DNA of 64,000 bases, from assembly GCF_035974275.1 (NCBI RefSeq), contig NZ_CP142422.1, positions 1,302,001 to 1,366,000 on the forward strand. Reading direction: 5' to 3'. Below, piece by piece: positions 10,403-46,546 of the stretch (positions within the stretch are counted from its first letter, which is position 1; each line of letters starts with the position of its first letter). The translations under genes were made by a program, and so were the position numbers. Source of the DNA: Chryseobacterium sp. MYb264 (GTDB lineage: Bacteria > Bacteroidota > Bacteroidia > Flavobacteriales > Weeksellaceae). The notes under the pieces are model-generated. The model did not search any database. It saw only the letters and a list, made by a program, of their open reading frames with translations, and was not told the origin of the DNA.

Positions 10403-11383
10403 TTATTTTCTAAAATAGCTCGGAACTACCCCAAATTTTTTCTTAAAAGCCGTTGCAAAATGCCTTGAATTTTTATATCCTACGAGCTCCGCTACATCAC
10501 TGATGCTTTTATTTCCTTCATGTAAAATTTCCTTGGCCTGCTCCATTTTGGCATCATTCCAGAATCCGAAAACTGTGGTTCCAAATAATTCTTTGAAACC
10601 TTTTTTTAATTTAAACTCGTTGGTTCCCACCATGTGAGCCAGCTCGATAAGGGAGCTTGTGGTATCTATATTTTCCAGCATATATTCCTTTACGGCATAC
10701 ATTCTCTCGACATCTGCTTTTGGAATGGGATAATGACTTTCATTATGATTTGTAAACTGTTCCAGCTGAAGTAAGATGAGCTCAATCACTTTCGCTTCCA
10801 GATAGATACGTTTAAAAATCCCTTTTCGGTTGCAGTTTAATATTTCCTGAATCAGCTGATACATATTGTAAGAGATCTGCTGGTTATGCTTATCTAGCAG
10901 ATCAGTTTTCCGGTTGTGAAGAGCCTCCCGAAAACGGCTGATCAAGGTCGATTCATCTGATAAAAAACGGTCAAAAAACGGGGGTGAAATATTGATCTCG
11001 AAAATCTGCATCGCCTCCGACATCCATTCCATTTCGCCTCTCAGCTGATGAGAATACACGATATTATGCTGATAATCATCGAAAGCAAAATTCCTCAGGG
11101 TACAGTCGCAGCTCGTTTTACTTTTACCTTTTAAGGCAAAATACATTTCGACTGTTTCGCCACTGCTTTCGAACTGCATTCTTATTTTTTCAGATAAATA
11201 GCCGTCCCCAAAGCCAATATGAACGTTCTCAAAATAGATTTCACGATAATATCCTTTACCAATCGGGAGATCCAGCTGGGTAACGCTTTCCTTAATATCA
11301 CCGTCTTCGGTGTAGTAAATGCTAAGATATTCTTTTTCAACAAGAACAGCATTTCTATTCTGATCATATAATTTTACATTCAT
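10403..11383 (-). CDS. PchR-like AraC-family transcriptional regulator
   Basis: A 326-residue regulator. The N-terminal ~220 residues lack a classical cupin motif but have the layout of PchR/YbtA-type siderophore sensors. The C-terminal ~100 residues form the double helix-turn-helix of AraC proteins: SLIELAHMVGTNEFKLKKGF is helix-turn-helix 1 and SISDVAELVGYKNSRHFATAF is helix-turn-helix 2, then FGVVPSYFRK. Family members bind the ferri-siderophore and activate receptor and biosynthesis genes. It diverges from the TonB receptor across a 420-bp region with two AT-rich inverted repeats, so it is the likely local regulator of the metallophore locus. Confidence 0.85.
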   Translation of the reverse strand: MNVKLYDQNRNAVLVEKEYLSIYYTEDGDIKESVTQLDLPIGKGYYREIYFENVHIGFGDGYLSEKIRMQFESSGETVEMYFALKGKSKTSCDCTLRNFAFDDYQHNIVYSHQLRGEMEWMSEAMQIFEINISPPFFDRFLSDESTLISRFREALHNRKTDLLDKHNQQISYNMYQLIQEILNCNRKGIFKRIYLEAKVIELILLQLEQFTNHNESHYPIPKADVERMYAVKEYMLENIDTTSSLIELAHMVGTNEFKLKKGFKELFGTTVFGFWNDAKMEQAKEILHEGNKSISDVAELVGYKNSRHFATAFKKKFGVVPSYFRK

Positions 11384-11471
11384 ACTGTTGCCTCTTTACA
11401 ATTAATCCGTATTGCGGACTTTTTTATCCTTTTGGGAAACCAGCCTCCGTTTTCTTCCTTTTACATTTGCA

Positions 11472-11479
11472 CAAAGTTA
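11472..11479 (-). promoter_or_regulatory. -7 promoter element for the AraC regulator
   Basis: The minus strand reads TAACTTTG, an exact TANNTTTG match about 90 nt upstream of the regulator ATG. No -33 TTG is visible, consistent with an activator-dependent or regulated promoter. Confidence 0.45.
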
Positions 11480-11498
11480 ATTATTATTTAGAATAATT
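11479..11498. promoter_or_regulatory. Inverted repeat next to the regulator promoter, candidate operator
   Basis: AATTATT (11479-11485) and AATAATT (11492-11498) are exact inverted copies separated by 6 nt. The repeat lies immediately upstream of the regulator -7 element on the minus strand. It could bind Fur or the AraC protein, but AT-rich DNA makes chance occurrence possible. Confidence 0.4.
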
Positions 11499-11771
11499 CT
11501 TAATAAAGAAAATATTTAGTCAGTTTTTGAATCATTGTGATCTATTTTCAAAGCCCTGAATAGATAAAATATAAACTAAAAAATTGTATTTCAGTATCTT
11601 AATACAAATCAATGCCAGAAAGTGTAAAGAAAAATTTATTATAAAAAACACTTCATTAGAGAAGAAAAATAAAGAGCATCTATAGTGATAAATTAAAAAA
11701 ATATCAAGCTAGAGCCCGAAAAATGCAGCTAACAATTATCAGGTATAAATAATTCTTCACAAGTTAAATTA

Positions 11772-11800
11772 TTATTTATATTTGGACTAATTATAAATAA
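11772..11800. promoter_or_regulatory. 9-bp inverted repeat overlapping the TonB receptor promoter, candidate operator
   Basis: TTATTTATA (11772-11780) and TATAAATAA (11792-11800) are exact inverted copies separated by 11 nt. They flank and overlap the -7 element TATATTTG (11777-11784) and end 3 nt before the receptor ATG. A protein bound here would block transcription directly. In the RNA it would also form a hairpin at the start codon. Confidence 0.55.
11777..11784 (+). promoter_or_regulatory. -7 promoter element for the TonB receptor and metallophore genes
   Basis: TATATTTG matches TANNTTTG 20 nt upstream of the ATG at 11804. This gives a very short 5' leader. No TTG box is seen upstream at normal spacing, so activation by another factor is likely. 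Confidence 0.5.
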
Positions 11801-11803
11801 GGA

Positions 11804-14194
11804 ATGGAAATATTTTTTAATCGTTTAAATACAAGTAAGGCAATATTTATGATTTTCGCCTGCACTACCGTATTTAATTTAATTGATGCTCAAACGATTA
11901 TAAAAATAAAAAAAGACAATAATATTCTTTTTTCTAAAGAAAAAATCACTGTTGAAGGAAGAGACAACACTTATGATTTAAATACCGACAGCAACGGACA
12001 GATTAAAATTTACGAAAAAGAAGGCAATTATTTTATTTTAATACATAATTCATCATACAGCAAAAGACGTTATCCTATAAAAATCACTTCCGATCACCAA
12101 TCGATTGAAATTGTCCTTAAAAATTCAGCACATGAGATTGAAGAGGTTACCCTTGAAGGGAATAAGTACTCTCCCATTCAAAAAATGAAGGAATCTCCCT
12201 ACACACCTGAAATCATTGATTTTAAAGAACTTAAAACGACTACCAAAACCGTTGTGGAAGCCTTAAATCTGGCATCAGGGATCCGCATTCAGCAGCAAGG
12301 AGGCATGGGAAGCACTCCCAATGTGATTCTTAACGGGATTGATGGTAAAGATGTACGCATTTTTGTGGATGAAATTCCGGTTTATCTCTTAGGACGCGGA
12401 TTTGAACTTCAGAACCTTACCACCAATATGATCGAACGTGTTGAAATATACAAGGGTATTATTCCTGTGCAGTTTGGAGCCGATGCGCTGGGTGGGGTCA
12501 TCAATATCGTGACCAAAAAGAGTGAAAAGGATATTTTAGGGATGAGCTATATGTACGGTTCATGGAATTCTCATGAAGCCACATTCAACGCTTCAGGTCA
12601 TCCGTTTGAAAATAAAAAAATCTATGCCGGATTTGATGCCGCTTACCGTCATTCAGACAATAATTACCGCATGGATGATGTGGATGTAGTTGTGGACGAT
12701 CTTTACAATACACGAAAAGGCCAGGCCAGAAGATTCAATGATCAGTATGATTTCGGAATGGCTAAAGTGCAGATGGGCATCAAAGATCTGAGCTGGGCAG
12801 ATGATCTCAGACTGATCGCTTCTTTCACTGAAACCTACAAAGAATGGCAGCATGGAGTTACCGCATTGAGACCATGGGGCGAGCCTTTTTCAAGAGAACA
12901 TACGTTCGGAGCGGCGATCAACTGGAAAAAATCGGATGCCGAAAAAAATAAATGGCAGATGAATGTCACTGCGGGATATAATTTTGAACATACTTACTTT
13001 GAAGATATTTCCTCCAGAATTTACTTTTGGGACGGCTCTTATATACAAGGCAGTACCAAAGGTGAAAGCGGACTTTACAGTCAGGGAAGAACTCCGAAAA
13101 TTAATCAGAATGTGTTCTATGCCAGAGAAAATGCCTTTTTCAAATTGGGAGACCAATATAAAATCAATATCAATCTATTGACAAGCCTTATGGAGCTCAG
13201 TGGAGAAGACCAGGCGGGTACGGCAACTTATGGAAAAGACCCCTTTACCATACCGCAGAAGTTATTTAATAATTTTCTTGGAGCCTCATTGGAATCAAAA
13301 TTTTTCCAAGGGCAGCTAACTTCCAATACTTCTTTCAAGCATTATTACAATCAGGTGAAAGGCGTTAGTTTTAAGATCAATAATGAATTTGATCAGCTGA
13401 ATTCGTCATCTTCTTCCGATATTGGTTTCGGTCAGGTATTCAAATGGACACCAACTTCTGTAATTTCTATTCTTCCGGGTTATGAATATACGGTACGACA
13501 GCCCGACAGCAAGGAAATTTTTGGAGATTATATTACGGTAAGTCCGAATCCTAATTTACAATCAGCTAAAAGTCATAATATCAATTTCAAAGTACAATAC
13601 CATTCGGTCAACAGGAAAATTTTTACGGGCATCGGAGCTTTTTACAGAAACTCAAAAAACCGCATCCTGCTTACTTCATTTTCCAATGCACTGGCTGCCT
13701 ATACCAATCTTTTAAAGACCTCTACCATCGGCGGTGAATGGTTTATGGAATATAAACTCAACAATAATGCAGGTTTCAATCTTAATGCAACCTATTTAGA
13801 TACCCGATTAAGAGGAACTGACAATTCAGGGATTTTCAATAGCGATTATATCGGGGCGAGAATTCCGAATACCCCTTACCTATTCGGAAATGCACAGATT
13901 TATTATAGGCTGGATCCGGGCGATCAAAAAAAATATTACCTCAGATTTCTATATACAGCTTCTTATGTGCACGAATATTTTCTTACCTGGGCCATGAATG
14001 GTATTAAATCTTCCAAGACTACCATTCCATCGCAGTTTGTCAATGATATTTCGATTTCTGTCAACTCCAAAAACGACCGTTGGAGTCTGGGAATAGACTG
14101 TAAAAATCTGACCAACGCAAAGGTATACGACAACTTCTCGGTACAGAGGCCGGGACGTAGCTTTTACGGAAAAATAACGTACTCATTCAACTAA
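11804..14194 (+). CDS. TonB-dependent outer-membrane receptor (siderophore type)
   Basis: A 796-residue outer-membrane receptor, probably for the ferri-form of the product of this locus. An N-terminal signal peptide ends near residue 30 (NLIDA-Q). A short carboxypeptidase-regulatory-like domain (about residues 30-110) follows. A TonB-box-like stretch is IEEVTLEG, and the plug domain contains NVILNGIDGKDVRIFVDEIP, ERVEIYKG and GADALGGVINIVTKK. The rest is beta-barrel ending KITYSFN. It is the first gene of the rightward locus, divergent from the PchR-like regulator and followed after 27 bp by a DUF4374 lipoprotein, a pairing typical of iron uptake in Bacteroidota. The substrate is inferred from context only. 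Confidence 0.9.
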   Translation: MEIFFNRLNTSKAIFMIFACTTVFNLIDAQTIIKIKKDNNILFSKEKITVEGRDNTYDLNTDSNGQIKIYEKEGNYFILIHNSSYSKRRYPIKITSDHQSIEIVLKNSAHEIEEVTLEGNKYSPIQKMKESPYTPEIIDFKELKTTTKTVVEALNLASGIRIQQQGGMGSTPNVILNGIDGKDVRIFVDEIPVYLLGRGFELQNLTTNMIERVEIYKGIIPVQFGADALGGVINIVTKKSEKDILGMSYMYGSWNSHEATFNASGHPFENKKIYAGFDAAYRHSDNNYRMDDVDVVVDDLYNTRKGQARRFNDQYDFGMAKVQMGIKDLSWADDLRLIASFTETYKEWQHGVTALRPWGEPFSREHTFGAAINWKKSDAEKNKWQMNVTAGYNFEHTYFEDISSRIYFWDGSYIQGSTKGESGLYSQGRTPKINQNVFYARENAFFKLGDQYKININLLTSLMELSGEDQAGTATYGKDPFTIPQKLFNNFLGASLESKFFQGQLTSNTSFKHYYNQVKGVSFKINNEFDQLNSSSSSDIGFGQVFKWTPTSVISILPGYEYTVRQPDSKEIFGDYITVSPNPNLQSAKSHNINFKVQYHSVNRKIFTGIGAFYRNSKNRILLTSFSNALAAYTNLLKTSTIGGEWFMEYKLNNNAGFNLNATYLDTRLRGTDNSGIFNSDYIGARIPNTPYLFGNAQIYYRLDPGDQKKYYLRFLYTASYVHEYFLTWAMNGIKSSKTTIPSQFVNDISISVNSKNDRWSLGIDCKNLTNAKVYDNFSVQRPGRSFYGKITYSFN

Positions 14195-14221
14195 ACAAAT
14201 TATCATAAAAAATCAAAAAAA

Positions 14222-15499
14222 ATGAAGAACAGACTTATTGCTTTAAGTGTCATGCTGCTGGCATTTGTTTCATGTAACAGCAAAGATGACGAGGCTACAG
14301 ATCCTTCAACAGACAGTGGTTCTGCCAATTTTGCTTTAATTACAAGACCACAGAATTCAGATGGAATGTCTTTTTCCGCTTATATGCAGAAAATTGAATC
14401 TCCTGATGTTACCGGAACCATAGACAATGCAAAAGCTCATGAAATATCGGCTTCTCATTCAGGAGGAGTGTACGAATTTCAGAAATCAGTTTTTGTTAAT
14501 GATTATCAAAACAAATCCATTACGAAATGGAGCCTATCAAACGCCAATAACGGCGAGAATAAAGGTTCGATCATGGTACCGGAACTTGGATTTCAGGGAA
14601 ATATTGCATTTAAAGATGAAAATACTGCGTACATCGGGGGATCAGGAAAAATCGTGATTTTCAACCCCAGTACCATGACAAAAACCGGAGTGATCGACTG
14701 GAGTTCAATGTCAAGAGTCGGGCAGGTGACCAACTTTCCGACGACCGGAGCCGCCATTCAGGCCGATGGAGTCACTGAAATTATCATCAACGGTAATTAT
14801 ATGTATGCCGCATTATATTATATGAATGATTTTAACACCTTCACTCCTGCTACAACAACCTGTGATATCCTTGTGATCGACCTTACGAAAGTGAACAATG
14901 CTTCAAGCAACAACGCAGATGCACTCGTAAAAATCATCAGCGATACAAGAGGATCATTTACAGGCGCATGGAATACCGGAGGCGGTGTCTATTATATGAA
15001 TAAAACGGAAAACGGAGACCTTTATGTGCTGTGTCACAATGTATTCGGAGGTGCCCGAAACATCATTGGTAAGCCGGCGTGTATGCTTAGAATCAAAAAC
15101 GGAGCTACCGAGTTCGATCCTGATTATTATTTTAATCTGGAAGCAGCCTCTCAAGGAAACGGCAATCCGGTGACCAATTTTGAATATTACGGAAACGGAA
15201 AATTCCTGGCAACAGTTCTGGATCCTTCAAAACTGGATCCATCCAACCCTTACTCATACAATACAGATGCGATTTTCCGCTGGTGGAGCTTTGATCTTAA
15301 TACGAAAACAGCAACAAAGGTAGATGACGACTATACCATCGGCGGAAAAGTGGCGAGATGCTATTTCTCCAATGGCTTTGCCTATGTGCCTTTTGCCAGT
15401 AAAACAAGCAATTATATCAATAAGATCAACTTAAGTACTTTAAGTAAAACCAAAACAATTACCACAACGGGGATGTCTCATATATTGAAGCTTAACTAA
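14222..15499 (+). CDS. DUF4374 surface lipoprotein (XusB-like siderophore binder)
   Basis: A 425-residue lipoprotein with lipobox LAFVSC (Cys about residue 19) followed by an acidic Asp/Ser-rich linker (NSKDDEATDPSTDS) suited to surface export. The remainder has repeated beta-propeller-like blades (for example NTAYIGGSGKIVIFNPSTM). It fits the DUF4374 family, whose Bacteroides member XusB is a siderophore-binding surface lipoprotein paired with a TonB receptor (from memory). Here it directly follows the TonB receptor, so it probably captures the ferri-metallophore. No PepSY-type XusC partner follows; a small DoxX-like membrane protein takes that place. Confidence 0.8.
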   Translation: MKNRLIALSVMLLAFVSCNSKDDEATDPSTDSGSANFALITRPQNSDGMSFSAYMQKIESPDVTGTIDNAKAHEISASHSGGVYEFQKSVFVNDYQNKSITKWSLSNANNGENKGSIMVPELGFQGNIAFKDENTAYIGGSGKIVIFNPSTMTKTGVIDWSSMSRVGQVTNFPTTGAAIQADGVTEIIINGNYMYAALYYMNDFNTFTPATTTCDILVIDLTKVNNASSNNADALVKIISDTRGSFTGAWNTGGGVYYMNKTENGDLYVLCHNVFGGARNIIGKPACMLRIKNGATEFDPDYYFNLEAASQGNGNPVTNFEYYGNGKFLATVLDPSKLDPSNPYSYNTDAIFRWWSFDLNTKTATKVDDDYTIGGKVARCYFSNGFAYVPFASKTSNYINKINLSTLSKTKTITTTGMSHILKLN

Positions 15500-15509
15500 C
15501 TGCATGACG

Positions 15510-15549
15510 AGGATTTGAGCATCTGATCACAACATCCGATGCTCATCCT
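15510..15549 (+). terminator. Hairpin after the DUF4374 gene, partial terminator candidate
   Basis: AGGATTTGAGCATC (15510-15523) pairs with GATGCTCATCCT (15538-15549) apart from a two-T bulge. Only a short T-rich tail follows. It may partly separate receptor expression from the downstream biosynthetic genes. Confidence 0.5.
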
Positions 15550-15587
15550 TTATCATGTTAAAACTTTTCTATTTAAAATCAAATATT

Positions 15588-16013
15588 ATGAGAAAAACGA
15601 TGACCATACTGCGATATATTTTTGCGGTAGTTCTTATCCTTTTCGGAATTATAGGAACTTATGCCATGATCACAGAAGGCTACAACCCGCAAAGCGAGGG
15701 AATTTTATTATTCGGAAAAACCTTCAGGCAGCTGCACGATGCTATTATGATGAGCTACTTGGGTGTTATTGTCCGTGTGGCACAACTGATCGCCGGAGTA
15801 TTGCTTTTAACCCGAAAATACTGGTGGATCGGTCTGCTGTTCTACCTTCCGTTTGCGGTCAATATTTTCCTGATTCACATCATTCATGATATGCCGCCTG
15901 CGCATCCCGGGTTTTTCGCTTCAGGAATGATTGTCTCACTAATGAATTTCATTTTGGTGTTGTATGAAAAAGACCGACTGAAGCAACTTATCGTCAATCC
16001 TCAGAAAAAATAA
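15588..16013 (+). CDS. Small four-helix membrane protein, DoxX-like
   Basis: A 141-residue integral membrane protein, starting MRKTMTILRYIFAVVLILFG at 15588. An ATG 33 bp upstream is in frame but gives a charged extension and is less likely. Four hydrophobic helices are visible, at about residues 8-28, 58-77, 81-100 and 110-130, with an HDMPPAHPG loop before the last helix. The general plan resembles DoxX/DoxD-like proteins. Function is unknown. It stands 5 bp before the flavin monooxygenase gene and follows the uptake pair, so a role at the inner membrane in uptake or redox is possible. Confidence 0.65.
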   Translation: MRKTMTILRYIFAVVLILFGIIGTYAMITEGYNPQSEGILLFGKTFRQLHDAIMMSYLGVIVRVAQLIAGVLLLTRKYWWIGLLFYLPFAVNIFLIHIIHDMPPAHPGFFASGMIVSLMNFILVLYEKDRLKQLIVNPQKK

Positions 16014-16018
16014 ACAAA

Positions 16019-17470
16019 ATGGCCGATCATCAAAAAATATACGAAGTCATTATCGTAGGATCAGGATTTTCGGGAATTTCGATGGCGATAAGCCTGAAGA
16101 AATTGGGAATTGATTCTTTTTTCATCATGGAAAAAGCCAAAGACATAGGCGGAACCTGGAGGGATAACAGCTATCCGGGTGCGCAGTGTGATGTGCCGTC
16201 TGCTCTTTACAGCTATTCTTTTGAACCCTTTCCAGGATGGAAGAAAAAATGGTCGGATCAGCCTCAAATTCTTGATTATCTCCGCTTTAATGTAGAAAAA
16301 AACGAACTGGATAAACATATCTTTTATGAAAAAGAGTTTTGTTCATCTTTATTTAAAGCAGAGCAGGGAATCTGGGAAGTGAAGACCAAGCAGGGTAATG
16401 TTTACCTCACAAAATCATTAATTATGGCAATCGGGCAGCTTCATCATCCGAAAATCCCTGATATTAAAGGCAAAGAAATCTTCGATGGAATCAGTTGGCA
16501 TTCTGCCCGGTGGAATCATGATTTTGATATCAGTGGAAAACGTATCGGTGTGATAGGAAATGCGGCCAGTGCGATCCAGTTTATTCCTGAAATCATTGAT
16601 AAAACTAAATCTCTGACGGTTTTTCAAAGAAGTGCCAAATGGTTACTGCCCAAGAAAAATACGTTATACAGTAAAAACCTTCAGCGAAAACCATTTCTGC
16701 TGAATTGGGACAGATATTCCAATAACGCATTCAATGGGATATTTTATCATTTAATGGGCCAGAACCCGATCTGGAAAAAAATGTGGCAGCAGGTGAGCTT
16801 AAGCCATCTGAAAAAGCATATTAAGGATCCTGAACTTCTGAAGAAGCTGACCCCGGACTATCCGATGGGAGCGGTGCGCGTGCTTTTATCAGATGAATAT
16901 TATCCGGCCATGGCAAAAGAAAAGACTGAGCTATGCACAGAAGGTATCTCACATTTCGTGAAAGATGGAATTGTAACGAGTTCAGGCAAAGAAATTCAAT
17001 TGGATGCCGTTATTTATGCAACGGGATTTGAAAGCAATCCTTTTCTGAAAGACCTTGATATCCACGGAATAAACGGGATCTCCATCAGTAACGCCTGGCA
17101 AGAGTCTACGGAAACCTATCTCGGAATCACCACAGCCGGTTTCCCAAATTTCTTTATGATGTTTGGACCGAATACGAATCTTGCGCACAGCTCCGTCCTT
17201 CTGATGATTGAAAGCCAGACCCGATACATTACAGAATGCCTGACCTACCTTTCAGCAAACCGACTGAAATATATGGATGTAAAACCTGAGTTTCAGCAAA
17301 AATTTACCCGACAGGTCAATCAAAGAATGAAGAAAAAAGCCTGGGTGCAGGTAAAAGACAGTTGGTACAAAAACGGAGATATCATCCTCAACAATTGGCC
17401 CGGCAAAGCTAAAGAATATCAAAAACTAACAAAGAAGATAGACGAATCTGCCTATACTTTTTGTCCGTAA
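16019..17470 (+). CDS. Flavin-containing monooxygenase, Baeyer-Villiger type
   Basis: A 483-residue FAD/NADPH oxygenase. The FAD-binding motif IIVGSGFSGISMAI begins at residue 9. The second Rossmann motif IGVIGNAASAIQFI lies near residue 180. Between them is a Baeyer-Villiger fingerprint-like stretch, FDGISWHSARWN (about residues 153-164), with N where P or D is usual. A C-terminal ATGFESNP motif is typical of the wider family. It is the first enzyme gene of the biosynthetic run, 29 bp before the FAAL gene. It may oxidise a ketone, sulfur or nitrogen on the product. N-hydroxylation for metal binding is also possible, though it does not look like an ornithine or lysine hydroxylase. Confidence 0.8.
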   Translation: MADHQKIYEVIIVGSGFSGISMAISLKKLGIDSFFIMEKAKDIGGTWRDNSYPGAQCDVPSALYSYSFEPFPGWKKKWSDQPQILDYLRFNVEKNELDKHIFYEKEFCSSLFKAEQGIWEVKTKQGNVYLTKSLIMAIGQLHHPKIPDIKGKEIFDGISWHSARWNHDFDISGKRIGVIGNAASAIQFIPEIIDKTKSLTVFQRSAKWLLPKKNTLYSKNLQRKPFLLNWDRYSNNAFNGIFYHLMGQNPIWKKMWQQVSLSHLKKHIKDPELLKKLTPDYPMGAVRVLLSDEYYPAMAKEKTELCTEGISHFVKDGIVTSSGKEIQLDAVIYATGFESNPFLKDLDIHGINGISISNAWQESTETYLGITTAGFPNFFMMFGPNTNLAHSSVLLMIESQTRYITECLTYLSANRLKYMDVKPEFQQKFTRQVNQRMKKKAWVQVKDSWYKNGDIILNNWPGKAKEYQKLTKKIDESAYTFCP

Positions 17471-21357: not shown

Positions 21358-21373
21358 TCTTAAACAAGACAAT

Positions 21374-34107: not shown

Positions 34108-34908
34108 ATGAATCATCTACAAAAATGGTTTCCCTTTAACCATAGAAAAATATTGGAAGAAAATGAAAAAGGAAATACCTTCCGCCATTCGGAAGAGCGA
34201 ATTCAGGTTTTTTGTTTTCCTTCAGCAGGAAGCAGTGCAGGCCTTTACAGAGCCTGGTGCGAGGCTACTAAAAATAACGAGGAAATTGATTTTATTCCTG
34301 TAGAAATCCCCGGACGCGGAAATCATATCTCGTCGCCAGCCGCACGCTCTATTAATGAGCTGACCGAAGCTTTTTTAGAAGTATTTCCAGAGGTGGTACG
34401 TGCTCCTTATATTATTTACGGACACAGTTTTGGCGCGGCAGTCGCATTTCAGGTAGCTTATGCTTTGCAGGAAAAAGGTTTCCGGTTGCCTGAAAAACTG
34501 ATTGTTGCAGGAAGACACGCTCCCCACATGAAAGATCCTAATCCTCTAAGCAGCACCAGCACAGATGCTGAAATCATTGAAGAGATTAAAAAGATGGGCG
34601 GTACTCCTGCTGCCATCCTGAATCATCCTGAAATGTTGCAGTTTACCCTTTCCCAACTGCGTGCAGACCTTCGCACCCATGAATCATTACGGTATGTAGG
34701 GCAACAGCTTCACATCCCTATTGAAGCCCACTGCGCCACACAGGATGATGCCCATAAAGCTATTGTGGAATACTGGAAAGATGTGACAACAGAGGAGTTT
34801 AAGATCAAAGAATTTGAAGGTCATCATTTTTTCATACAGGCATTGGGAAACCAATATCTGAACGAATTAATGGATACCGTTTACCAGACTAAAAAATCAC
34901 TTTTCTAA
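34108..34908 (+). CDS. Type II thioesterase
   Basis: A 266-residue alpha/beta hydrolase of the GrsT/YbtT type, which clears misloaded or stalled thioesters from carrier domains. Visible features are FCFPSAGSSAGLYRAW near residue 37, the nucleophile GHSFGA (Ser107) and the C-terminal catalytic His in FEGHHFFI. It lies between two NRPS genes with 22- and 14-bp gaps and is clearly in the operon. YbtT and PchC hold comparable places in yersiniabactin and pyochelin clusters. Confidence 0.9.
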   Translation: MNHLQKWFPFNHRKILEENEKGNTFRHSEERIQVFCFPSAGSSAGLYRAWCEATKNNEEIDFIPVEIPGRGNHISSPAARSINELTEAFLEVFPEVVRAPYIIYGHSFGAAVAFQVAYALQEKGFRLPEKLIVAGRHAPHMKDPNPLSSTSTDAEIIEEIKKMGGTPAAILNHPEMLQFTLSQLRADLRTHESLRYVGQQLHIPIEAHCATQDDAHKAIVEYWKDVTTEEFKIKEFEGHHFFIQALGNQYLNELMDTVYQTKKSLF

Positions 34909-38458: not shown

Positions 38459-39556
38459 ATGATCGGAATAATAGGAGGATACGGAGAAGTAGGCCATCAT
38501 GCCTGCCTTACGTTACAACAATATAATATCGGTCCTTTAAAAATCGGAGGCCGAAATCCTGAAAAAGGAAAAGCCAGACAATCGGATGTATTGCCCGGAG
38601 CAATATGGGAAAAAGTAGATGTAGAAGACGATAAGAGTCTGGCTGATTTTATGGTCGGCTGTGATCTTATCCTGAACTGCGCAGCCCCTTCGCACCGTTA
38701 TTCCCGACGGATTGCCCAAATATGCGTACAACAGGGCATTCATCTGGTAGATGCGGGGACAGATAATGATTATCACAGTAATCCCATCGATAGCGGAAAT
38801 CAGATCATCGTATATGCAGCCGGGGCAACTCCGGGTTTTTCGGGACTTTTTCCTGTATGGTTCGGAAAGAAGTTTCAGAAAGTGCATTCGCTGCTCAGTT
38901 ATTATGGGACTTCAGGGCAGCTTTCAAGAGCCGGAGCCGAAGATTATCTGGAAGGATCCCTGCATTCCAACAATATTCCGCGTGCCGCCTGGCGAAATGG
39001 AATTGTTCCGAATGTATTATTAAGAAAAAGCGGAGTCACGCTTCCTTTTTTTCCGGGAGAGGTTACCTTATTTCCTCTTTTTGATGATGAAACTACTATC
39101 GTAGCTCAAAGACTTGAGCTTGATTATGGAGAATGGTACGCTGCAGTAGAGGGAGAAAAATCCATTGCTGCCTTAGACAGCGCAAGCTTTGAGTACAGAA
39201 CAAATCCTGAGGCCATGATCGAAAAACTATGCTTCGTTGTAGAAATGGATACTCTGGGAAGAAGCCCGTATTTTATTCTGATGGTTCAGCTTACGGGAGA
39301 AAAGGAGGACGAAGAAAAAGTGCAGACCGCTATTTATGAGGTGGGGCAAATCATTCCTTTTTGCGGAAAAATGGCAGCCGTCATTGTAAAAACAATCTTG
39401 GACGGCAAGGTAAAACCGGGACTGCATCATACCGCTTCCATTGAAGATACAGACTATGTGATGGAGCATTTGGAAAAAACAGATTCCCGCCACAGCATTC
39501 AGATTATCGATTATTCTGTTGAAGAACTTTCAGTAGAGGAAGAAGGAACATTATAA
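38459..39556 (+). CDS. Saccharopine-dehydrogenase-like NAD(P)H oxidoreductase
   Basis: A 365-residue protein starting at the ATG at 38459 (MIGIIGGYGEVG), 2 bp after the NRPS stop. An earlier in-frame ATG lies inside the NRPS gene. The N-terminal Rossmann fold (GGYGEVGHHACLTL, then IGGRNPEK and LILNCAAPSHRY) and the DAGTDNDY stretch fit the saccharopine dehydrogenase NADP-binding family. That family includes trans-acting enoyl reductases of mycobacterial polyketide pathways. It could reduce an enoyl or imine intermediate here. The substrate cannot be told from sequence. The tight spacing makes it an integral part of the operon. Confidence 0.75.
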   Translation: MIGIIGGYGEVGHHACLTLQQYNIGPLKIGGRNPEKGKARQSDVLPGAIWEKVDVEDDKSLADFMVGCDLILNCAAPSHRYSRRIAQICVQQGIHLVDAGTDNDYHSNPIDSGNQIIVYAAGATPGFSGLFPVWFGKKFQKVHSLLSYYGTSGQLSRAGAEDYLEGSLHSNNIPRAAWRNGIVPNVLLRKSGVTLPFFPGEVTLFPLFDDETTIVAQRLELDYGEWYAAVEGEKSIAALDSASFEYRTNPEAMIEKLCFVVEMDTLGRSPYFILMVQLTGEKEDEEKVQTAIYEVGQIIPFCGKMAAVIVKTILDGKVKPGLHHTASIEDTDYVMEHLEKTDSRHSIQIIDYSVEELSVEEEGTL

Positions 39557-39566: not shown

Positions 39567-40691
39567 ATGAATACAAAAAAACAATATACATCACAAAAAA
39601 TAAGAACCGTCGTTATCGGCTCCACTTTCGGGCAGTTCTATCTGGAAGCGTTGAGCAATCTTTCGGATGATTTCGAAATTGTTGCCCTGATTGCCAGCGG
39701 AAGTGACCGTTCAAAAAAATGTGCGGCGGCATACGGAATTCCTCTTTTAAATGATATCAAAGAGCTTGATCCCAATGATATTGACCTCGCCTGCATCATC
39801 CTCCGCTCGGGAGTGATGGGCGGTAAAGGAACCGAATTTGCGCTTTACTGCATGGAAAAAGGAATTCACGTGATACAGGAGCACCCTGTTCACCACAATG
39901 ATCTCGCTTCATGTCTGCGAGCTGCCAAATCCAATAATGTTCATTTCATCACAGGCAATCTTTACGTACATCTTCCGGCTTTTAAACGTTTTGCAGAAGT
40001 TGCGCAACATCTTTTCGAAACCGGAAAAGTAGCTTATCTCGATATAGCACTTGCTACACAGGTATCTTTTCCTTTGGTACAAATGATGATCGACCTGCTT
40101 CCCAATCCGAGACCTCTGGAAATACGACAGGTTATAAAAGATTCGGGACCGTTTCAGGTTTTAACTGGTGAATGGGGAGGCATTCCTCTAACCCTAAGGG
40201 CTCATAATGAGGTAAACCCTAATGATCCCGATAATCATCAGCATTTGCTGCATACCATTTCCATCGGCTGTTCGGGAGGAACTTTGTCTCTTACCGATAC
40301 CCACGGGCCAGTTGTCTGGAAAACACAGCTTCATATTCCGCATAATGAACTGTTAAGAAATGTCTCTGCTGAACATCAGCTGGATGAAAAAAGCACCCTG
40401 ATTTTGGGGCCTGAATTTCCACCCACTTATCAGGAGATCCTTCAGAAACAGTGGCCGAGAGCTATCGGAAAAGACCTCATCATGATGAAAAACCTGATTA
40501 CAGGAAAAGAAAAGCCCGAGCAAAGGGCTCATCTGGAGCTGCTATGTTCGCGCCTGTGGCATGATCTTACCCACGCATTAGGATCTCCCACTTTAAGACC
40601 TGATACCTCATACGAAAAGATTGAAATCAGCACCCTGATTGAACTCGCCGGAAAAATCCCGGCAGAACCTGAGGAAATATGCATTTCCTGA
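39567..40691 (+). CDS. Thiazolinyl imide reductase (Irp3/YbtU/PchG-like)
   Basis: A 374-residue Gfo/Idh/MocA-fold reductase acting in trans on carrier-bound thiazolines, giving thiazolidine rings in yersiniabactin and pyochelin synthesis. The dinucleotide-binding start is VVIGSTFGQFYLEAL. Family signatures RSGVMGGKGTEFAL and GIHVIQEHPVHHNDL (about residues 90-120) are plain, and the middle has WGGIPLTLRAHNEVNP. It lies between the second and third NRPS genes. Its presence makes one reduced ring in the product likely. Confidence 0.9.
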   Translation: MNTKKQYTSQKIRTVVIGSTFGQFYLEALSNLSDDFEIVALIASGSDRSKKCAAAYGIPLLNDIKELDPNDIDLACIILRSGVMGGKGTEFALYCMEKGIHVIQEHPVHHNDLASCLRAAKSNNVHFITGNLYVHLPAFKRFAEVAQHLFETGKVAYLDIALATQVSFPLVQMMIDLLPNPRPLEIRQVIKDSGPFQVLTGEWGGIPLTLRAHNEVNPNDPDNHQHLLHTISIGCSGGTLSLTDTHGPVVWKTQLHIPHNELLRNVSAEHQLDEKSTLILGPEFPPTYQEILQKQWPRAIGKDLIMMKNLITGKEKPEQRAHLELLCSRLWHDLTHALGSPTLRPDTSYEKIEISTLIELAGKIPAEPEEICIS

Positions 40692-40737
40692 TCAGAATTT
40701 CAATCGAATATCAATTTAACAATCTACTATTTTTTAT

Positions 40738-43700
40738 ATGATAACTTCTATAGAATCAGTTGATGTCCAGGAACTCATGAATACTTTCAGAAAAAAGAAA
40801 ATTCAACTCTGGACAGAAGAAGGAAAATTAAAATTCAAAGCTCCGAAAGGAGTGATGGAACCACAGGATATTGAATTACTTAAGGCACATAAAACCCAGA
40901 TTCTTGAATTTCTGGAATCTGAAAACAGATCCGTTACTATTCAGAATGATCTTGCCAGCCGCTATAGCCCGTTTCCGCTTACCGATGTGCAATCGGCCTA
41001 CCTTTTAGGAAGAAATCCAGGATTCAGATACGGCGGGGTGGCGTGTCATCTTTATATGGAAATGAAATACAGTGATCTGAATCATGATCTTGTAGAAAAT
41101 GTATGGAACCGCCTCATGGAAAGACATGAAATGCTAAGAGCTACCGTAAGCAATCATGGATTTCAGACCATTCACCAGAAAACACCGCGATTTGAGGTAC
41201 ATTATGAAGATGTTTCACTGTTGCCAACGTCCGGGCAGAACTCTGCTTTGAATAAGGTACGAGATAGGATGAGCCACCATGTATATGATACGGAAAAGTG
41301 GCCTTTATTTGACATCGCCGTTACCACCACGACCCGATTGGATAACAAAAAGGAATCTGTGCTTCATTTCTCCATGGAATTTCTAATTGCAGACTGGATC
41401 AGCATGTGGATGCTCATGGCAGAGTTCGAAAAATTGTATTTCAATCCGGAAACGGAGCTTTCTCCTCTGAGCCTAAGCTTCAGAGATTACGTCATTGCTG
41501 AAAGAGGAGTCCGTGAAACTCCCGCATATTCCAAAGATAAAAATTACTGGATGAACCGTGTCGCGACACTACCGGCAGGCCCTATTCTTCCGGTCTCCCG
41601 CCGTGAAGATATTTCTTCTAATCATTTCACCAGAAACAGTACCCTTATTGAAAAAGATAAATGGGAAAATTTTAAAACGATTGCTCAATCAAACGGAATT
41701 ACTCCAACCTCCGCTGTTGCTGCGGTATATGCTTCCGTATTGGAACGATGGAGTGAAACAGCACATTTCTGTCTAAATCTTACCGTACTCAACCGTATGC
41801 CTCTTCATCCCGAAGTTCATCAAATTGTGGGCGATTTTACCTCAGTCAGTCTGCTTGAAGTAGATTATAGACAGCCAAAGACATTCTCTGAAGCAGCGAA
41901 GGAAATGAATATTCAACTTTTCGACGATCTTGACCATCCTTTATTTACCGGAGTTGAGGTACTAAGGGAAATGACGAAAAAACAACAGAACGGAAGAGTT
42001 CTTTTACCGGTCGTTCTTACAAGTGCAATCGGGCTGTTGGATACCGGAGAAGGATCAGGATTAAAAGGGCAAGTGGGAGATTATAATATCAGCCAGACCC
42101 CTCAGGTATTCATTGACTGTCAGGTTGTGGATACTGCACAGGGACTTTCAGTCAATTGGGACACCCGCGACGGTATTTTCCCCGAAAAAATGATCGATGA
42201 TATGTTTTCAACTTTTGAAAACCTTCTTAATGAACTTTCAGATCATCCTGAAGCATGGCTGAAAAAAGAGTTGGTTTCGTTACCTGTAAGACATCAGGAA
42301 GAAAGAGATCTTCTTAACCACGAACCGCAGGTACTTCCACAAATGCTTCTTCACGAGCCCGTCATCAGAAACTTTAGAATTAATGGAAATAAAACGGCTA
42401 TAATCGATCAATATGGTTCATTCAGCTATCAGGACATCGAACAAAAGGCTGCTTCCGTAGCTCTGCAGCTGAAACAATTAGGTTTCAGTCCGAAGGATAA
42501 AGCAGCGATCACTCTTCCCAAATCTCATCATCAGGTAAGTGCCGTTCTTGCAGTACTGGCTCTGGGTGGAATTTATGTTCCGATAGATCTTAATCAGCCT
42601 GCTCAAAGAAGGCAGAAAATCATCGCCAATGCCGGAATTCAATATATTCTGACCTCCGAGGAAATCCTACAGGAGGAGAATGGGATTAATGATAGCGTTA
42701 ATAGAATCGCTGTTGATGCATTAAAAAGCAATACCGAAATACATTTAGAGACCATTTCAGCAGATTTCACTAAAGATCATAATGCTGCAGCGTATATCAT
42801 CTATACTTCAGGTTCTACAGGAGCGCCTAAAGGCGTTGTAATCTCTCATTCAGGCGCTTTGAATACGATAGAAGATATGAACAGACGCTTTGAAATTGAT
42901 CAGAAAGATTCTGTTCTGGCATTATCACAGCTCGGATTTGATCTTTCGGTTTATGACCTGTTCGGAATCCTGGGGAGCGGAGGAACCATTATTTATCCTG
43001 ATCCCGACCGTCAGCGCGATCCTTCCCACTGGCTGGAACTGATGCAAAAAAATAAGATCACGGTGTGGAATACGGCTCCAGCGCTCATGCAGATGTTCGT
43101 TAACTTCCTCGAAAATGAGAAACAGTATATCCCCCACCTCAGGATCTCTTTCAGACTTGCCTTTTTATCAGGAGACTGGATTCCTCTGAATCTTCCGGAT
43201 ACCCTGAAAAAACTTGTCCCTTCTATACAGCTGATCAGTCTTGGTGGTGCTACGGAAGCTTCGATTTGGTCTAATTTCCATATTTATAAAGGACTTCAGC
43301 CGGACTGGAACAGCATTCCTTACGGCAGACCGCTTTCAAATCAGGGATTCCGTATCCTTGATGAACAAATGCGCGACTGCCCGGAATGGAAATCAGGAGA
43401 TCTTTTTATTACCGGAAAAGGTCTGGCTTTAGAATATTTTAATGATGCTGAACTGACGCTGGACCGCTTTTTCCCTCACCCTTCCGATGGTGAACGCATG
43501 TACAAAACGGGTGACCTGGGAAGATATATGCCCGGTGGTGAAATTGAGTTTTTAGGAAGAAGAGACAAGCAGGTTAAAATACGAGGTCACCGCATTGAAC
43601 TCGGAGAAATTGAATCAGCATTAATGCTGCATCCAGAGGTTTTCCATGCCGTGGTGATTGCTAAATCTCCTTCTGAAAATAGCAGGATAAAAAATTTATT

Positions 43701-45150
43701 TGGCTTCATTGTAACTTCAGGGAAACAGGCGGATTCAACTCCAACTTCTGATCTGTCGAAGTTTTTAGCTGAAAAATTACCTTCATACATGATTCCGACT
43801 CACCTTCAGAAAATTGATACAATCCCCGTAACCGTTAATGGGAAAGTTGACATCAAAAAACTGGAGTCTCTTTGCATTATGGAAACCGCTCATCACAAAG
43901 AAGGACATCAGAACTTTAAAGATGAGCTTGAAAAAATGATCCACGACCTCTGGAGCAGCGCTCTTGGGGCAGATCATATTGATCTTTATCAGAACCTTAA
44001 CGATTATGGAGCAGATTCTCTGATATCGGCACAGATGGCAGGAAAGCTGCGTGATATTTTTGCTGAGAAAGGACAGAGTAATCTGACTTTTGATTTGATT
44101 TTAAGGCAAATTCTGACTTCTCCTACTATTGCAGAATTATCTGATTTCTTCAGGGATCAGGAACAAAACTCGAAAGGTTCTGAACCGACTAAAAAACCAC
44201 ATAAAGCCTCACGTATAGGAACATTAACCCATTTTGGCGGCGATTCCTCAGAAATCCACCGGATCATACTTCATGCCGGCGGAGGAACTCTGGACCGATA
44301 CAAACACCTGATCCGGGAAATGGTTAATCAGGAATCCGGAGCCGTTTACGGAATTTCGGTGGGCGATTTTGAGGGATATTGTGCGATAGACAGTGAACAG
44401 CTGTTAGAACGTATTGCCGACGATTACTGCGCTTCCATCCTTGAAAACGGAGTGCGAAAAGTACAGCTGATCGGATATTCCATCGGAAGTATGATCGCGG
44501 TTGAAATGGCAAGACGACTTAGCGAAAAAGGAATTGAAGTAACTGATCTCTGCATTATTGATGCCATCAGGGTTCCTTTCAAAGTGTATGATGATCTTTT
44601 CATAGAATTCCGTTTTCTTCCGAATTTAGGAATTACTCCTGCTGATGCCGGTTTTGGTGAAATGAACGGATCTGTTTTTATGGAATGGGTTACGAAAACC
44701 CTTCAGGAAAATAAGAATGAGCTTCCCGAAGGTGCTATTTTTAATATGCAGGATAACAGTGATTTAATTCAGGTAAGTTCTGTTTTCACAAAGATGAATT
44801 CCGTCACGCAATCTGAACGATTTGATGCCTATCTGCAAGCGATGAAGCGACTTTCTGATCGGGAAATGCCAAAAGAATTGCTGGAAAGGACGTTTAACAC
44901 CTTTGCTCAGAACTTTAAAGCATCGCGCTTTGTCTCACCTCCGTACTTTGGTGATATCCGTTATTTTAAAGCGAAGGATCAGCGTACGACAACGGCTACA
45001 GGAATCAATGACGATATTCTTGAACTGTGGTCTGAAATAAGTTTGGGAACACTTCATATCACCGATATCGAAGGCGACCATCTTGGATGCGTAGGTGAAG
45101 AATATGCTCCTGATCTTGCAAAATATTTAAATCTCTTTTCCAAAGCATAG
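40738..45150 (+). CDS. NRPS: TubC docking - Cy - A(Cys) - PCP - TE
   Basis: A 1470-residue terminal module. Residues 1-58 form a TubC-like docking domain (KKIQLWTEEGKLKFKAP), similar to the segment before Cy2 upstream. Cy3 (~75-510) has LTDVQSAYLLGR, but the first Asp of DxxxxD is Glu (Glu214, Asp219). The A domain (~540-1030) has YTSGSTGAPKG and the cysteine pocket pattern DLxxY, N, S, IW. The PCP has YGADSL (Ser1094). A type I thioesterase closes the protein, with nucleophile Ser1248 in GYSIGS and a late EGDHLG histidine. It should add the third cysteine, cyclise it and release the product by hydrolysis or macrocyclisation. Confidence 0.9.
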   Translation: MITSIESVDVQELMNTFRKKKIQLWTEEGKLKFKAPKGVMEPQDIELLKAHKTQILEFLESENRSVTIQNDLASRYSPFPLTDVQSAYLLGRNPGFRYGGVACHLYMEMKYSDLNHDLVENVWNRLMERHEMLRATVSNHGFQTIHQKTPRFEVHYEDVSLLPTSGQNSALNKVRDRMSHHVYDTEKWPLFDIAVTTTTRLDNKKESVLHFSMEFLIADWISMWMLMAEFEKLYFNPETELSPLSLSFRDYVIAERGVRETPAYSKDKNYWMNRVATLPAGPILPVSRREDISSNHFTRNSTLIEKDKWENFKTIAQSNGITPTSAVAAVYASVLERWSETAHFCLNLTVLNRMPLHPEVHQIVGDFTSVSLLEVDYRQPKTFSEAAKEMNIQLFDDLDHPLFTGVEVLREMTKKQQNGRVLLPVVLTSAIGLLDTGEGSGLKGQVGDYNISQTPQVFIDCQVVDTAQGLSVNWDTRDGIFPEKMIDDMFSTFENLLNELSDHPEAWLKKELVSLPVRHQEERDLLNHEPQVLPQMLLHEPVIRNFRINGNKTAIIDQYGSFSYQDIEQKAASVALQLKQLGFSPKDKAAITLPKSHHQVSAVLAVLALGGIYVPIDLNQPAQRRQKIIANAGIQYILTSEEILQEENGINDSVNRIAVDALKSNTEIHLETISADFTKDHNAAAYIIYTSGSTGAPKGVVISHSGALNTIEDMNRRFEIDQKDSVLALSQLGFDLSVYDLFGILGSGGTIIYPDPDRQRDPSHWLELMQKNKITVWNTAPALMQMFVNFLENEKQYIPHLRISFRLAFLSGDWIPLNLPDTLKKLVPSIQLISLGGATEASIWSNFHIYKGLQPDWNSIPYGRPLSNQGFRILDEQMRDCPEWKSGDLFITGKGLALEYFNDAELTLDRFFPHPSDGERMYKTGDLGRYMPGGEIEFLGRRDKQVKIRGHRIELGEIESALMLHPEVFHAVVIAKSPSENSRIKNLFGFIVTSGKQADSTPTSDLSKFLAEKLPSYMIPTHLQKIDTIPVTVNGKVDIKKLESLCIMETAHHKEGHQNFKDELEKMIHDLWSSALGADHIDLYQNLNDYGADSLISAQMAGKLRDIFAEKGQSNLTFDLILRQILTSPTIAELSDFFRDQEQNSKGSEPTKKPHKASRIGTLTHFGGDSSEIHRIILHAGGGTLDRYKHLIREMVNQESGAVYGISVGDFEGYCAIDSEQLLERIADDYCASILENGVRKVQLIGYSIGSMIAVEMARRLSEKGIEVTDLCIIDAIRVPFKVYDDLFIEFRFLPNLGITPADAGFGEMNGSVFMEWVTKTLQENKNELPEGAIFNMQDNSDLIQVSSVFTKMNSVTQSERFDAYLQAMKRLSDREMPKELLERTFNTFAQNFKASRFVSPPYFGDIRYFKAKDQRTTTATGINDDILELWSEISLGTLHITDIEGDHLGCVGEEYAPDLAKYLNLFSKA

Positions 45151-45153
45151 TAT

Positions 45154-45831
45154 ATGAAAAATTTACCTGAAGGGCTGGAAGCTGCTTATTTTGACGTAGA
45201 CGGTACGCTGAGTAAAAGTAATATTGTGAATCCCCTTCTTTATATTAAAAAAATGGTAATGTCGCGCTCCGGATATATGATCTGGAGGGCGGTACTGCCG
45301 TTTCGTTTTCTCTACTGGACTGTACTCGACAAGATCAGTCGAAAGAGGTCTACAGCCGCTATTTACAATCAGTATAAAGGAATTTCTGTCGAAAAAATGA
45401 AACTGTTAATACCCGATTGTTATCATCAACAATATCAAAAGAAGCTGTTCACAAAAGCGATTGAAGTCGTTCGTTCTTTACAGGAAAAGGGTATTCCTAT
45501 CGTGTTGGTATCGGGATCTTTGGATCTGTTTTTAAATCCTTTAGCTAAAGAATTTGGTGCTGAATTACTTTGTTCGAGCCTTGAAGTAAAAAACGGAATG
45601 TACACAGGAAAGGTAAAAGGTCCGGTCGTATCGGGGATTCAAAAAGCAGTGATGATTGATACGCACGCCAGTAAAAATAAGATCAATCTGGAAAAGTCTA
45701 TTTCCTTCGGGGACTCGGCGGATGATCTGCCTATGCTGCGATCTGTAAGATATGCAGTGGCTATCAATCCTGATAGAATTCTTACGCTTGCTGCTGAAAA
45801 AAATCAATGGAATATTGAAAAATGGTTCTGA
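45154..45831 (+). CDS. HAD-IB family phosphatase (SerB/CicA-like)
   Basis: A 225-residue hydrolase with all HAD motifs: FDVDGTL (Asp14 nucleophile, Asp16), VLVSGS, a lysine region and GDSADDLPML. A helical cap with a hydrophobic patch (YMIWRAVLPFRFLYW) resembles HAD-IB members that act on lipids or membrane-associated phosphoesters. It starts 3 bp after the terminal NRPS and ends 1 bp before the phosphopantetheinyl transferase, so it is co-translated with both. HAD-IB enzymes are not standard in thiazoline siderophore clusters. A phosphorylated intermediate, or a coincidental passenger, are both possible. Confidence 0.8.
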   Translation: MKNLPEGLEAAYFDVDGTLSKSNIVNPLLYIKKMVMSRSGYMIWRAVLPFRFLYWTVLDKISRKRSTAAIYNQYKGISVEKMKLLIPDCYHQQYQKKLFTKAIEVVRSLQEKGIPIVLVSGSLDLFLNPLAKEFGAELLCSSLEVKNGMYTGKVKGPVVSGIQKAVMIDTHASKNKINLEKSISFGDSADDLPMLRSVRYAVAINPDRILTLAAEKNQWNIEKWF

Positions 45832-45832
45832 T

Positions 45833-46546
45833 ATGAAAATATATGCTGTAAAAATTGATCAGAATTTCGCTGAAAATCTGATCCGGGAGTTGATGCCGTA
45901 TGTTTCTCGTGAAAAACAGGAAAAAATAGGTCGTTTTCGAAAACCGATAGACTCGCTGAGATCTCTTTTGGGAGATCTTATTATCCGGTTGCTTTTATGT
46001 AGCCATTACGGTTTTCAGAATGAGAAAATCAGCTACGAATATGGGCAATACGGAAAACCTTTCCTCTCAGAATCTCCCCATCTTCACTTCAATATTTCCC
46101 ATTCCGGAAATTGGGTGATTGGCGTTGTTGCGGAGCATAAAGTGGGTATTGATATTGAAAAGATAACCGATATGAAACCGGAACTTTGCTCATTAGCCTT
46201 TACTGAAAAGGAAAATGAAATGCTCCAAAAGCTTTCTCCCCAGGAAAGGAAAAAAATGTTTTTTGAACTTTGGACAGTGAAAGAAAGCTATATAAAAGCG
46301 ACGGGAAAAGGGCTCTCTGAGGGGCTTAATACACTTGAAGTTATGAAAGAACGAGACCTTATCCGCATTCAAAAAGATGGCAAAAATACAACCTCTTATT
46401 TTGAAACCTTTGAAATGATCGGAGGGTATATGATCTCCTTATGTTCATTCTCCCTTATTTTTAATAAAAATATTGAGCTGACAACTCTGGATAGCTTCAT
46501 GAATCAGGTACAGTCAATTTTCAAACCTACAATATTCAAAGTGTGA
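45833..46546 (+). CDS. 4'-phosphopantetheinyl transferase, Sfp type
   Basis: A 237-residue enzyme transferring phosphopantetheine from CoA to carrier domains. The start at 45833 (MKIYAVKIDQN) is 1 bp after the HAD stop. An in-frame ATG at 45752 lies inside the HAD gene. Sfp motifs are clear: FNISHSGNWVI, VGIDIEKI (about residue 104), then FTEKENEML and WTVKESYIKATGKGLSEGL. It would activate all six carriers of the locus (ACPs at Ser1216, Ser1601 and Ser54; PCPs at Ser1125, Ser1123 and Ser1094). It is the last gene of the operon, followed by a strong terminator. Confidence 0.93.
   Translation: MKIYAVKIDQNFAENLIRELMPYVSREKQEKIGRFRKPIDSLRSLLGDLIIRLLLCSHYGFQNEKISYEYGQYGKPFLSESPHLHFNISHSGNWVIGVVAEHKVGIDIEKITDMKPELCSLAFTEKENEMLQKLSPQERKKMFFELWTVKESYIKATGKGLSEGLNTLEVMKERDLIRIQKDGKNTTSYFETFEMIGGYMISLCSFSLIFNKNIELTTLDSFMNQVQSIFKPTIFKV

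Follow-up and report, generated by a model that had tools for sequence, protein, structure and literature searches.

A predicted biosynthesis-and-uptake locus in Chryseobacterium

Does a flavobacterium make a thiazoline-type metallophore of its own, and do the receptor genes that lie beside the assembly line bring that compound back into the cell? The question is raised by a gene island of ~37 kb in the one-contig, 5.23-Mb genome of Chryseobacterium sp. MYb264, which we analyzed in a window of 64,000 nucleotides (the whole stretch at positions 1,302,001 to 1,366,000 of contig NZ_CP142422.1); coordinates below are those of the window unless stated otherwise. Judging from domain content, we think it likely that the locus encodes an acyltransferase (AT)-less polyketide synthase-nonribosomal peptide synthetase (PKS-NRPS) line, primed with a lipid, together with uptake genes for a predicted tri-cysteine thiazole/thiazol(id)ine metallophore.

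Domains were called with hmmscan (Pfam), NCBIfam models, and sequence searches of the PDB. Comparisons were made with six relatives, named here with the identity of their loading proteins to that of the window: Chryseobacterium aurantiacum, C. ureilyticum, C. pennipullorum, and C. vrystaatense (74-75%), Flavobacterium poyangense (69%), and one Flavobacteriaceae metagenome-assembled genome (MAG; 59%). These and the window make up the seven clusters. The principal genes, in which the domains are fatty acyl-AMP ligase (FAAL), acyl-ACP dehydrogenase (ACAD), acyl and peptidyl carrier proteins (ACP, PCP), ketosynthase (KS), dehydratase (DH), ketoreductase (KR), heterocyclization (Cy), condensation (C), adenylation (A), oxidase (Ox), and thioesterase (TE), are as follows.

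11804..14194, + strand: TonB-dependent receptor, XusA homologue (PDB 9gbc_A, residues 57-795, 3.5e-76)
14222..15499, + strand: DUF4374 lipoprotein, XusB homologue (PF14298; PDB 9hqe, 5e-14 over residues 206-407)
17500..21357, + strand: FAAL-ACAD-ACP loading protein (domain searches; ACP Ser and ACAD motif RIFEGP(T/S)E in 7/7 clusters)
21338..26383, + strand: pks1, PKS module 1, KS-(AT-sized spacer without GHSxG)-DH-KR-ACP
26399..28234, + strand: pks2, PKS module 2, stand-alone KS, KS-AT linker, and post-AT-like tail, the last judged by eye (PF00109, PF22336/PF22621)
28281..34085, + strand: nrps1, ACP-Cy1-A1(Cys)-PCP-Ox-TubC_N-Cy2
34923..38456, + strand: nrps2, C-lobe half Cy/C, A2(Cys) with an inserted methyltransferase/epimerase-like domain, PCP
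38459..39556, + strand: Sacchrp_dh_NADP-type trans reductase (PF03435)
39567..40691, + strand: thiazolinyl imine reductase, TIR (TIGR01761; Irp3/YbtU 4gmg, 2e-39)
40738..45150, + strand: nrps3, TubC_N-Cy3-A3(Cys)-PCP-TE

Cysteine modules and ring-forming enzymes

An original prediction for this locus had proposed three Cys-type modules, and the A domains bear this out: the code DLYN-[FLM]-S-[LM]-IW, which we take to be that of cysteine, was read from motif anchors in 21/21 A domains (A1 to A3 of the seven clusters). In the PDB, these domains match the linear gramicidin synthase LgrA best, and BmdB and PchE score strongly as well. All three Cy domains carry the motif SxTPQVxxDxQ in 7/7 clusters (21/21), and a catalytic role of its Thr, Asp, and Gln is discussed for PchE (PMC8807600). 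The Ox domain follows PCP1, its best PDB match being BmdC (6e-25), and its YASSGG motif, the nucleophile motifs of the TE and of a separate type II thioesterase (TEII), and the carrier serines are kept in 7/7 clusters, PCP1 reading GVSS or GISS.

The predicted domain order was confirmed by our searches with some corrections. Around module 2, the Cy domain forms the C terminus of nrps1 and nrps2 opens with a half domain of the condensation type. Residues 1-215 of nrps2 yielded a predicted fold of fair confidence (pLDDT 75) that matches condensation and heterocyclization domains, the best structural match being BmdB (E 5e-7, probability 1.00, TM by query 0.59). From this model we infer that the half domain would be a C-lobe that keeps the C-A platform, the whole Cy2 being at the end of nrps1.

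The claim that ring enzymes of the yersiniabactin/pyochelin kind are present also stood, as TIR scores 252.9 bits with TIGR01761, against a cut-off of 188.8, and matches Irp3/YbtU. Two hallmarks of a pyochelin/yersiniabactin-type assembly line, Cys-type A with Cy domains and a thiazolinyl imine reductase, are therefore found in the locus; a third, a salicylate (aryl) starter, is not, and a FAAL-type domain, ACAD, and PKS are found instead. No chorismate-binding enzyme is encoded in the window; three are encoded elsewhere in the genome. The annotation of one homologue of the Sacchrp_dh reductase, that of Sporomusa ovata, starts with "Putative reductoisomerase in sider", and this second reductase family is present along with TIR in Kribbella deserti and Aquimarina hainanensis. 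A related species, Sporomusa termitida, is given as a karamomycin-like case (PMC12971057).

The domain inserted in A2 was originally called methyltransferase/epimerase-like. It matches Pfam Methyltransf_12 in 7/7 clusters, and its glycine motif is degenerate, the middle Gly of GxGxG being Arg in 7/7, as in PchE.

Predicted lipid loading and polyketide extension

The fatty-acid starter of the original prediction is supported by the loading domain. In PDB searches, this domain matched 7r7e-g (named "Polyketide synthase") and 3kxw best and, after them, a series of fatty acyl-AMP ligases that includes FadD23, FadD28, and FadD32; NCBIfam FAAL models match it below their own cut-offs. These matches support a putative lipid-type, FAAL loading step. 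Downstream, the KS, DH, KR, and ACP motifs and the ACAD glutamate, presumably the catalytic residue of RIFEGP(T/S)E, are kept in 7/7 clusters.

The line has KS modules without a functional AT, as in trans-AT PKSs. PF00698 (AT) has no match in the PKS proteins of the locus, and GHSxG is absent from pks1 and pks2 in 7/7 clusters; the genome has five AT matches, none within the window. Since no working AT is encoded, malonyl groups would need to be supplied in trans, FabD being one possible donor. The locus contains no dedicated trans AT, and one of the AT matches in the genome is a 291-aa frame at genome position 3,910,815. Other AT-bearing frames (2354, 1415, 524, and 746 aa) lie at ~155-164 kb and 1.692-1.705 Mb of the genome; they probably belong to other PKS loci and are possible trans-AT sources.

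A FAAL-primed PKS could also make a different head. Thiazoline siderophores that are primed by a FAAL and bear a pentylphenol head have been described; for massiliachelin and micacocidin, the domains named in the legend are FAAL, ACP, KS, AT, and KR (PMC6604713). If KS1 acted iteratively, the PKS pair would make a 6-alkenylsalicylate, the product being an alkylphenol-thiazole metallophore like those two. We consider this unlikely. FAAL loading is shared with the micacocidin type, but its KS-AT-KR-ACP PKS is not found here; two KSs in separate proteins, no AT, ACAD, and DH better fit a bimodular dienyl-ketone line, and colinear reading would provide two malonyl units, one too few for an aromatic ring.

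Uptake genes and their co-occurrence with the reductase

The linked receptor genes of Bacteroidota type, a TonB receptor and a DUF4374 lipoprotein in the original prediction, proved to be homologues of XusA and XusB; a PNAS paper describes 9GBC as the XusAB complex and 9HQE as apo Bacteroides fragilis XusB. With the NCBIfam model MxcH, the receptor reaches 419.8 bits, under the cut-off of 925. As in XusAB-type systems, the XusA-like receptor adjoins a DUF4374 lipoprotein with a lipobox, a Cys lipobox being seen by eye at the N terminus in 7/7 clusters. Each of the seven genomes has one close XusB-like copy, at this locus, and two of them have distant copies as well (two in F. poyangense, one in C. 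ureilyticum).

The strongest sign of a joint function of receptor and synthetase is their co-occurrence. With cut-offs of E 1e-10 for TIR and E 1e-30 for the XusB-like protein, and at most five lipoprotein candidates scored per genome, both genes were found together in 5 of 320 family genomes, whereas the remaining 315 had neither (Fisher p 3.7e-11, uncorrected for shared ancestry, so that shared descent of one island limits its weight); TIR is present in four genomes of the same genus as the window. Because of this pairing, the XusB-like lipoprotein looks like a dedicated partner of the biosynthesis, and the original suggestion of a metallophore, which had been drawn from the uptake genes, is strengthened.

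The literature presents XusAB-type systems as a means of taking up xenosiderophores by piracy (PMC13142918), and in Bacteroides thetaiotaomicron the Xus genes are up 489- to 676-fold in an iron-dependent stimulon (PMC10434189). The former description would suit piracy genes that had become neighbors of a biosynthetic cluster by accident, a view to which we give almost no credence, as the same order is found in the window and 6/6 relatives and 0 of the 315 other family genomes have a lipoprotein match at E 1e-30. It is quite improbable, too, that the product is a lipid-thiazole with antibiotic or cytotoxic action and that the receptor and lipoprotein have another task or take it up for a different purpose. 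Cytotoxicity does occur among thiazol(in)e metallophores, e.g., in lusichelin B (PMC12210259). In addition, among the 120 of 262 FAAL-ACAD-ACP homologues listed, many of those with a named organism are cyanobacterial, and no product is stated for any. The pairing of the locus with XusAB homologues and the presence of TIR, an enzyme of metallophore type, nevertheless favor a metallophore over an antibiotic or cytotoxin.

Conservation and island character

The block from the TonB receptor gene to a HAD gene is colinear in 6/6 relatives, in which the flanks differ, and this confirms that the locus is conserved beyond chance. Eight flanking window genes had no counterparts in the relatives' fetched stretches (48-55 kb), apart from two weak paralogue matches of ~25% identity. 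Homology of the left flank with relatives stops near 10314, on the ilvE side, in 6/6, and a tRNA gene lies at the other edge.

47405..47479, - strand: tRNA-Arg(TCG) at the island edge (right-flank homology of 11/11 relatives stops ≤42 bases beyond its 3' end)

The best explanation is that the island is a horizontally mobile biosynthesis-and-uptake unit. A repeat of the tRNA-Arg end was not found in the window. As a candidate for the empty site, the compared genome G034 was rejected: ilvE and the right-flank gene lie 0.9 Mb apart there, so it offers no simple empty site. No plasmid copy of the locus was found in PLSDB, where the TIR relatives are all <60% identical (215 records) and the five best places for FAAL-ACAD-ACP, of 2448 records, are only 28-32% identical. 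A TIR relative on the Klebsiella plasmid CP032834.1 is 43% identical, closer than the Streptomyces ones among the matches listed. An order-wide sample of 395 genomes gave a single genome with TIR at E 1e-40, the one to which the window belongs; the other known carriers did not show up in this sample.

Additional genes and regulation

The original prediction had overlooked five genes, in which BVMO stands for Baeyer-Villiger monooxygenase and PPTase for phosphopantetheinyl transferase.

15588..16013, + strand: small hydrophobic protein (in 6/6 relatives; 141 aa from ATG 15588, start judged from relatives)
16019..17470, + strand: type I BVMO-like flavin monooxygenase (phenylacetone monooxygenase 1w4x, 2e-69)
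34108..34908, + strand: TEII (PF00975; GHSFG in 7/7 clusters)
45154..45831, + strand: HAD-IB family phosphatase-like protein (TIGR01490 above cut-off; in 6/6 relatives)
45833..46546, + strand: Sfp-type PPTase (PF01648; start judged from relatives)

The small hydrophobic protein, whose membrane nature was judged by eye, would be 152 aa long from an alternative ATG at 15555, and it has no Pfam match at E 0.01. The PPTase gene is at the same place in 5/6 relatives and was not seen adjoining the F. poyangense block. In that species, a MATE-type exporter gene (PF01554; L037:3886-5235) lies between nrps3 and the HAD gene; the MAG has a MATE-like frame there, recognized by eye, and the five Chryseobacterium blocks do not.

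The flavin monooxygenase is homologous to phenylacetone monooxygenase and has the motifs FxGxxxHxxxWN and GGxWxxxxYPGxxxD in 7/7 clusters. It matches FxGxxxHxxxW(P/D), which we take to be the type I BVMO fingerprint, save for the last residue, which is N in 7/7.

Two further features lie upstream of the receptor gene.

10403..11383, - strand: AraC-family regulator, divergent from the receptor gene (PF12833/PF00165)
11773..11800, + strand: conserved promoter-proximal element TATTTATATTTGGACTAATTATAAATAA (the same 28 bases, by eye, before the receptor gene in four other Chryseobacterium)

The regulator had been called PchR-like, which we could not uphold: Pfam and NCBIfam identified the AraC helix-turn-helix only, with no PchR-type feature seen, and, apart from the window, only the MAG has a homologue next to the block, with 37% identity. 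The element TATTTATATTTGGACTAATTATAAATAA, which presumably contains a TAnnTTTG-like -7 box, occurs in two variants in F. poyangense and is not found in the MAG; its 21-base core has a single match in the window at ≤3 mismatches, where 0.01 is expected. An inverted stretch related to it, 74% complementary, lies at 11484-11517. The element is a possible operator.

Evidence against the metallophore reading

Several observations weigh against a metallophore made and taken up by this locus. A PepSY protein (XusC-like) is not in the locus, where the third gene encodes the small hydrophobic protein without a Pfam match, and the window block has no exporter gene, the MATE-type gene being seen only in F. 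poyangense and the MAG. A Fur-box scan upstream of the receptor gene gave best scores within the range of 500 shuffles of the window stretch. A genome scan for the TATTTATATTTGGACTAATTATAAATAA core returned six matches, that of the locus included, versus three for the reversed control; one is by a TonB-receptor-like frame and the others are by frames that, to the eye, do not seem connected with iron, so we make no claim of metal regulation.

Within the synthetase, the first D of the DxxxxD motif of Cy3 is replaced by E in 7/7 clusters. The domain inserted in A2 scores 32.1, above the Pfam methyltransferase cut-off of 30, and searched alone against the PDB reaches 26.0 bits with PchE versus 23.3 with the DisA methyltransferase. 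Because the Methyltransf_12 cut-off is passed and the PchE and DisA scores are close, an epimerase is not secured; from the degenerate motif, we prefer a putative epimerase to a methyltransferase, as an assignment still unproven. The metallophore reading is independent of this assignment.

In the PKS, the KS-DH spacer of pks1 has the length of an AT, its predicted structure (pLDDT 51) shows no confident fold, and Pfam detects KS linkers only. Aligned by hhalign with the five ATs of the genome, it gave no significant match (Prob 0.6, E 0.097), yet it aligned at the GHSxG position. As the spacer has neither a confident fold nor significant AT homology, we claim only that no working AT is present. 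Two of the six relatives have one in-frame stop each in pks1, within KS1 in C. ureilyticum and just after KS1 in the MAG, in sequence that is otherwise aligned; these are either sequencing errors or early decay.

The half-Cy domain, the AT-sized spacer, and these stops could together mean that the cluster is decaying and nonfunctional, which we judge very improbable, since the frames of the window are all open and the block genes of the relatives keep their catalytic motifs despite only 48-92% identity to those of the window.

Comparison with known systems

In logic, the predicted line comes closest to that of micacocidin and massiliachelin (an agrochelin epimer), in which a FAAL-primed PKS precedes the Cys modules. 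Those lines also contain an epimerization domain that resembles a methyltransferase and form thiazoline/thiazolidine rings, and massiliachelin is produced under iron deficiency; they differ in their AT-bearing PKS and pentylphenol head (PMC6604713), whereas the locus analyzed here lacks an AT and has ACAD, two KS proteins, three Cys modules, Ox, and a BVMO-like enzyme. In ring count, it is closest to equibactin and the lusichelins. For equibactin, Cys is predicted to be bound at three PCP stations and there is a YbtU-like reductase, but the system is salicylate-dependent and streptococcal and has an ABC importer (PMC3672683). The lusichelins are products of a PKS-NRPS metallophore line with several Cys modules, one Ox thiazole, an AraC regulator, and a TonB receptor, but with a salicylate starter, AT-bearing PKS, and four Cys modules, in a cyanobacterium (PMC12210259).

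The pyochelin and yersiniabactin synthetases share with this locus the Cys modules with Cy, TIR (Irp3/YbtU), and the methyltransferase-like domain inserted in A, and those systems also have TE and TEII; the locus has no salicylate gene and would have a lipid starter and a keto head. XusABC of Bacteroides has the homologous TonB receptor and DUF4374 lipoprotein but is described for foreign siderophores and includes the PepSY protein XusC, whereas the genes here are tied to a biosynthetic line and the third one encodes a small hydrophobic protein. None of the compared systems, as the cited papers present them, unites a bimodular PKS without AT with ACAD, Ox, three Cys modules, and uptake of the XusAB-like kind, and our searches of the open-access literature found no description of this locus.

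Proposed pathway and significance

We propose that FAAL activates a free fatty acid as its adenylate and transfers the acyl group to the ACP and that ACAD then introduces a 2,3-unsaturation. PKS module 1 would add two carbons from malonyl supplied in trans, with KR and DH leaving a second double bond, and the stand-alone KS and the head ACP of nrps1 would add two more, the β-ketone staying because the second PKS module has no KR. Cy1 may join this chain to Cys and close a thiazoline, which Ox would oxidize to a thiazole; Cy2 and A2 would add the second Cys, whose center the degenerate methyltransferase-like domain may epimerize, as in PchE; TIR, acting in trans, would reduce one ring to a thiazolidine; and Cy3 and A3 would add the third Cys before TE releases the acid. 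Whereas gene content, domain identity, motifs, colinearity, and co-occurrence were observed, we infer the starter length, trans AT, ring states, epimerization, metal, catalytic steps, and place of the BVMO-like enzyme.

In the predicted product, an enolizable β-keto-thiazole would stand where pyochelin and yersiniabactin have the O,N donor pair of salicyl-thiazoline, and the lipid tail would confer membrane affinity. If the starter is saturated and the product is a free acid with a dienyl ketone, one thiazole, and two thiazolines, its formula would be C(n+13)H(2n+9)N3O3S3 for a C-n starter; a C8 starter would give [M+H]+ 464.113, 466.129 after reduction of one ring, or 480.108 with an additional O, and a ferric adduct at 517.025. 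The XusB-like lipoprotein would capture the metal complex and deliver it, as a cognate ligand rather than a stolen one, to the XusA-like receptor. More tentatively, and with rather less confidence than in the metallophore itself, we hypothesize that flavobacteria make a new chelator class in which an enolized dienyl β-keto-thiazole stands for salicylate, with XusAB-type receptors, interpreted until now as piracy equipment, serving also for metallophores made by the cell itself, piracy in gut Bacteroides perhaps being derived from self-uptake. In this view, the BVMO-like enzyme may cut or oxidize the keto head, which would yield a controlled-release or acyloxymethyl-thiazole chelator.

In the gut context, Bacteroidota are described as not known siderophore producers (PMC13142918). 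Bacteroidota are also not among the 14 phyla with NRP-metallophore regions listed in Table 2 of a 2026 census of 59,851 genomes, in which no region was detected in any phylum missing from the table, 413 regions without known taxonomy stood outside it, and the rules do not detect thiazol(id)ine heterocycles or a PKS-derived alkylsalicylate chelator (PMC12971057). The locus is a concrete, conserved candidate in this blind spot of the census, and it leads to the prediction that receptors of a type known from piracy also import a siderophore made by the same cell.

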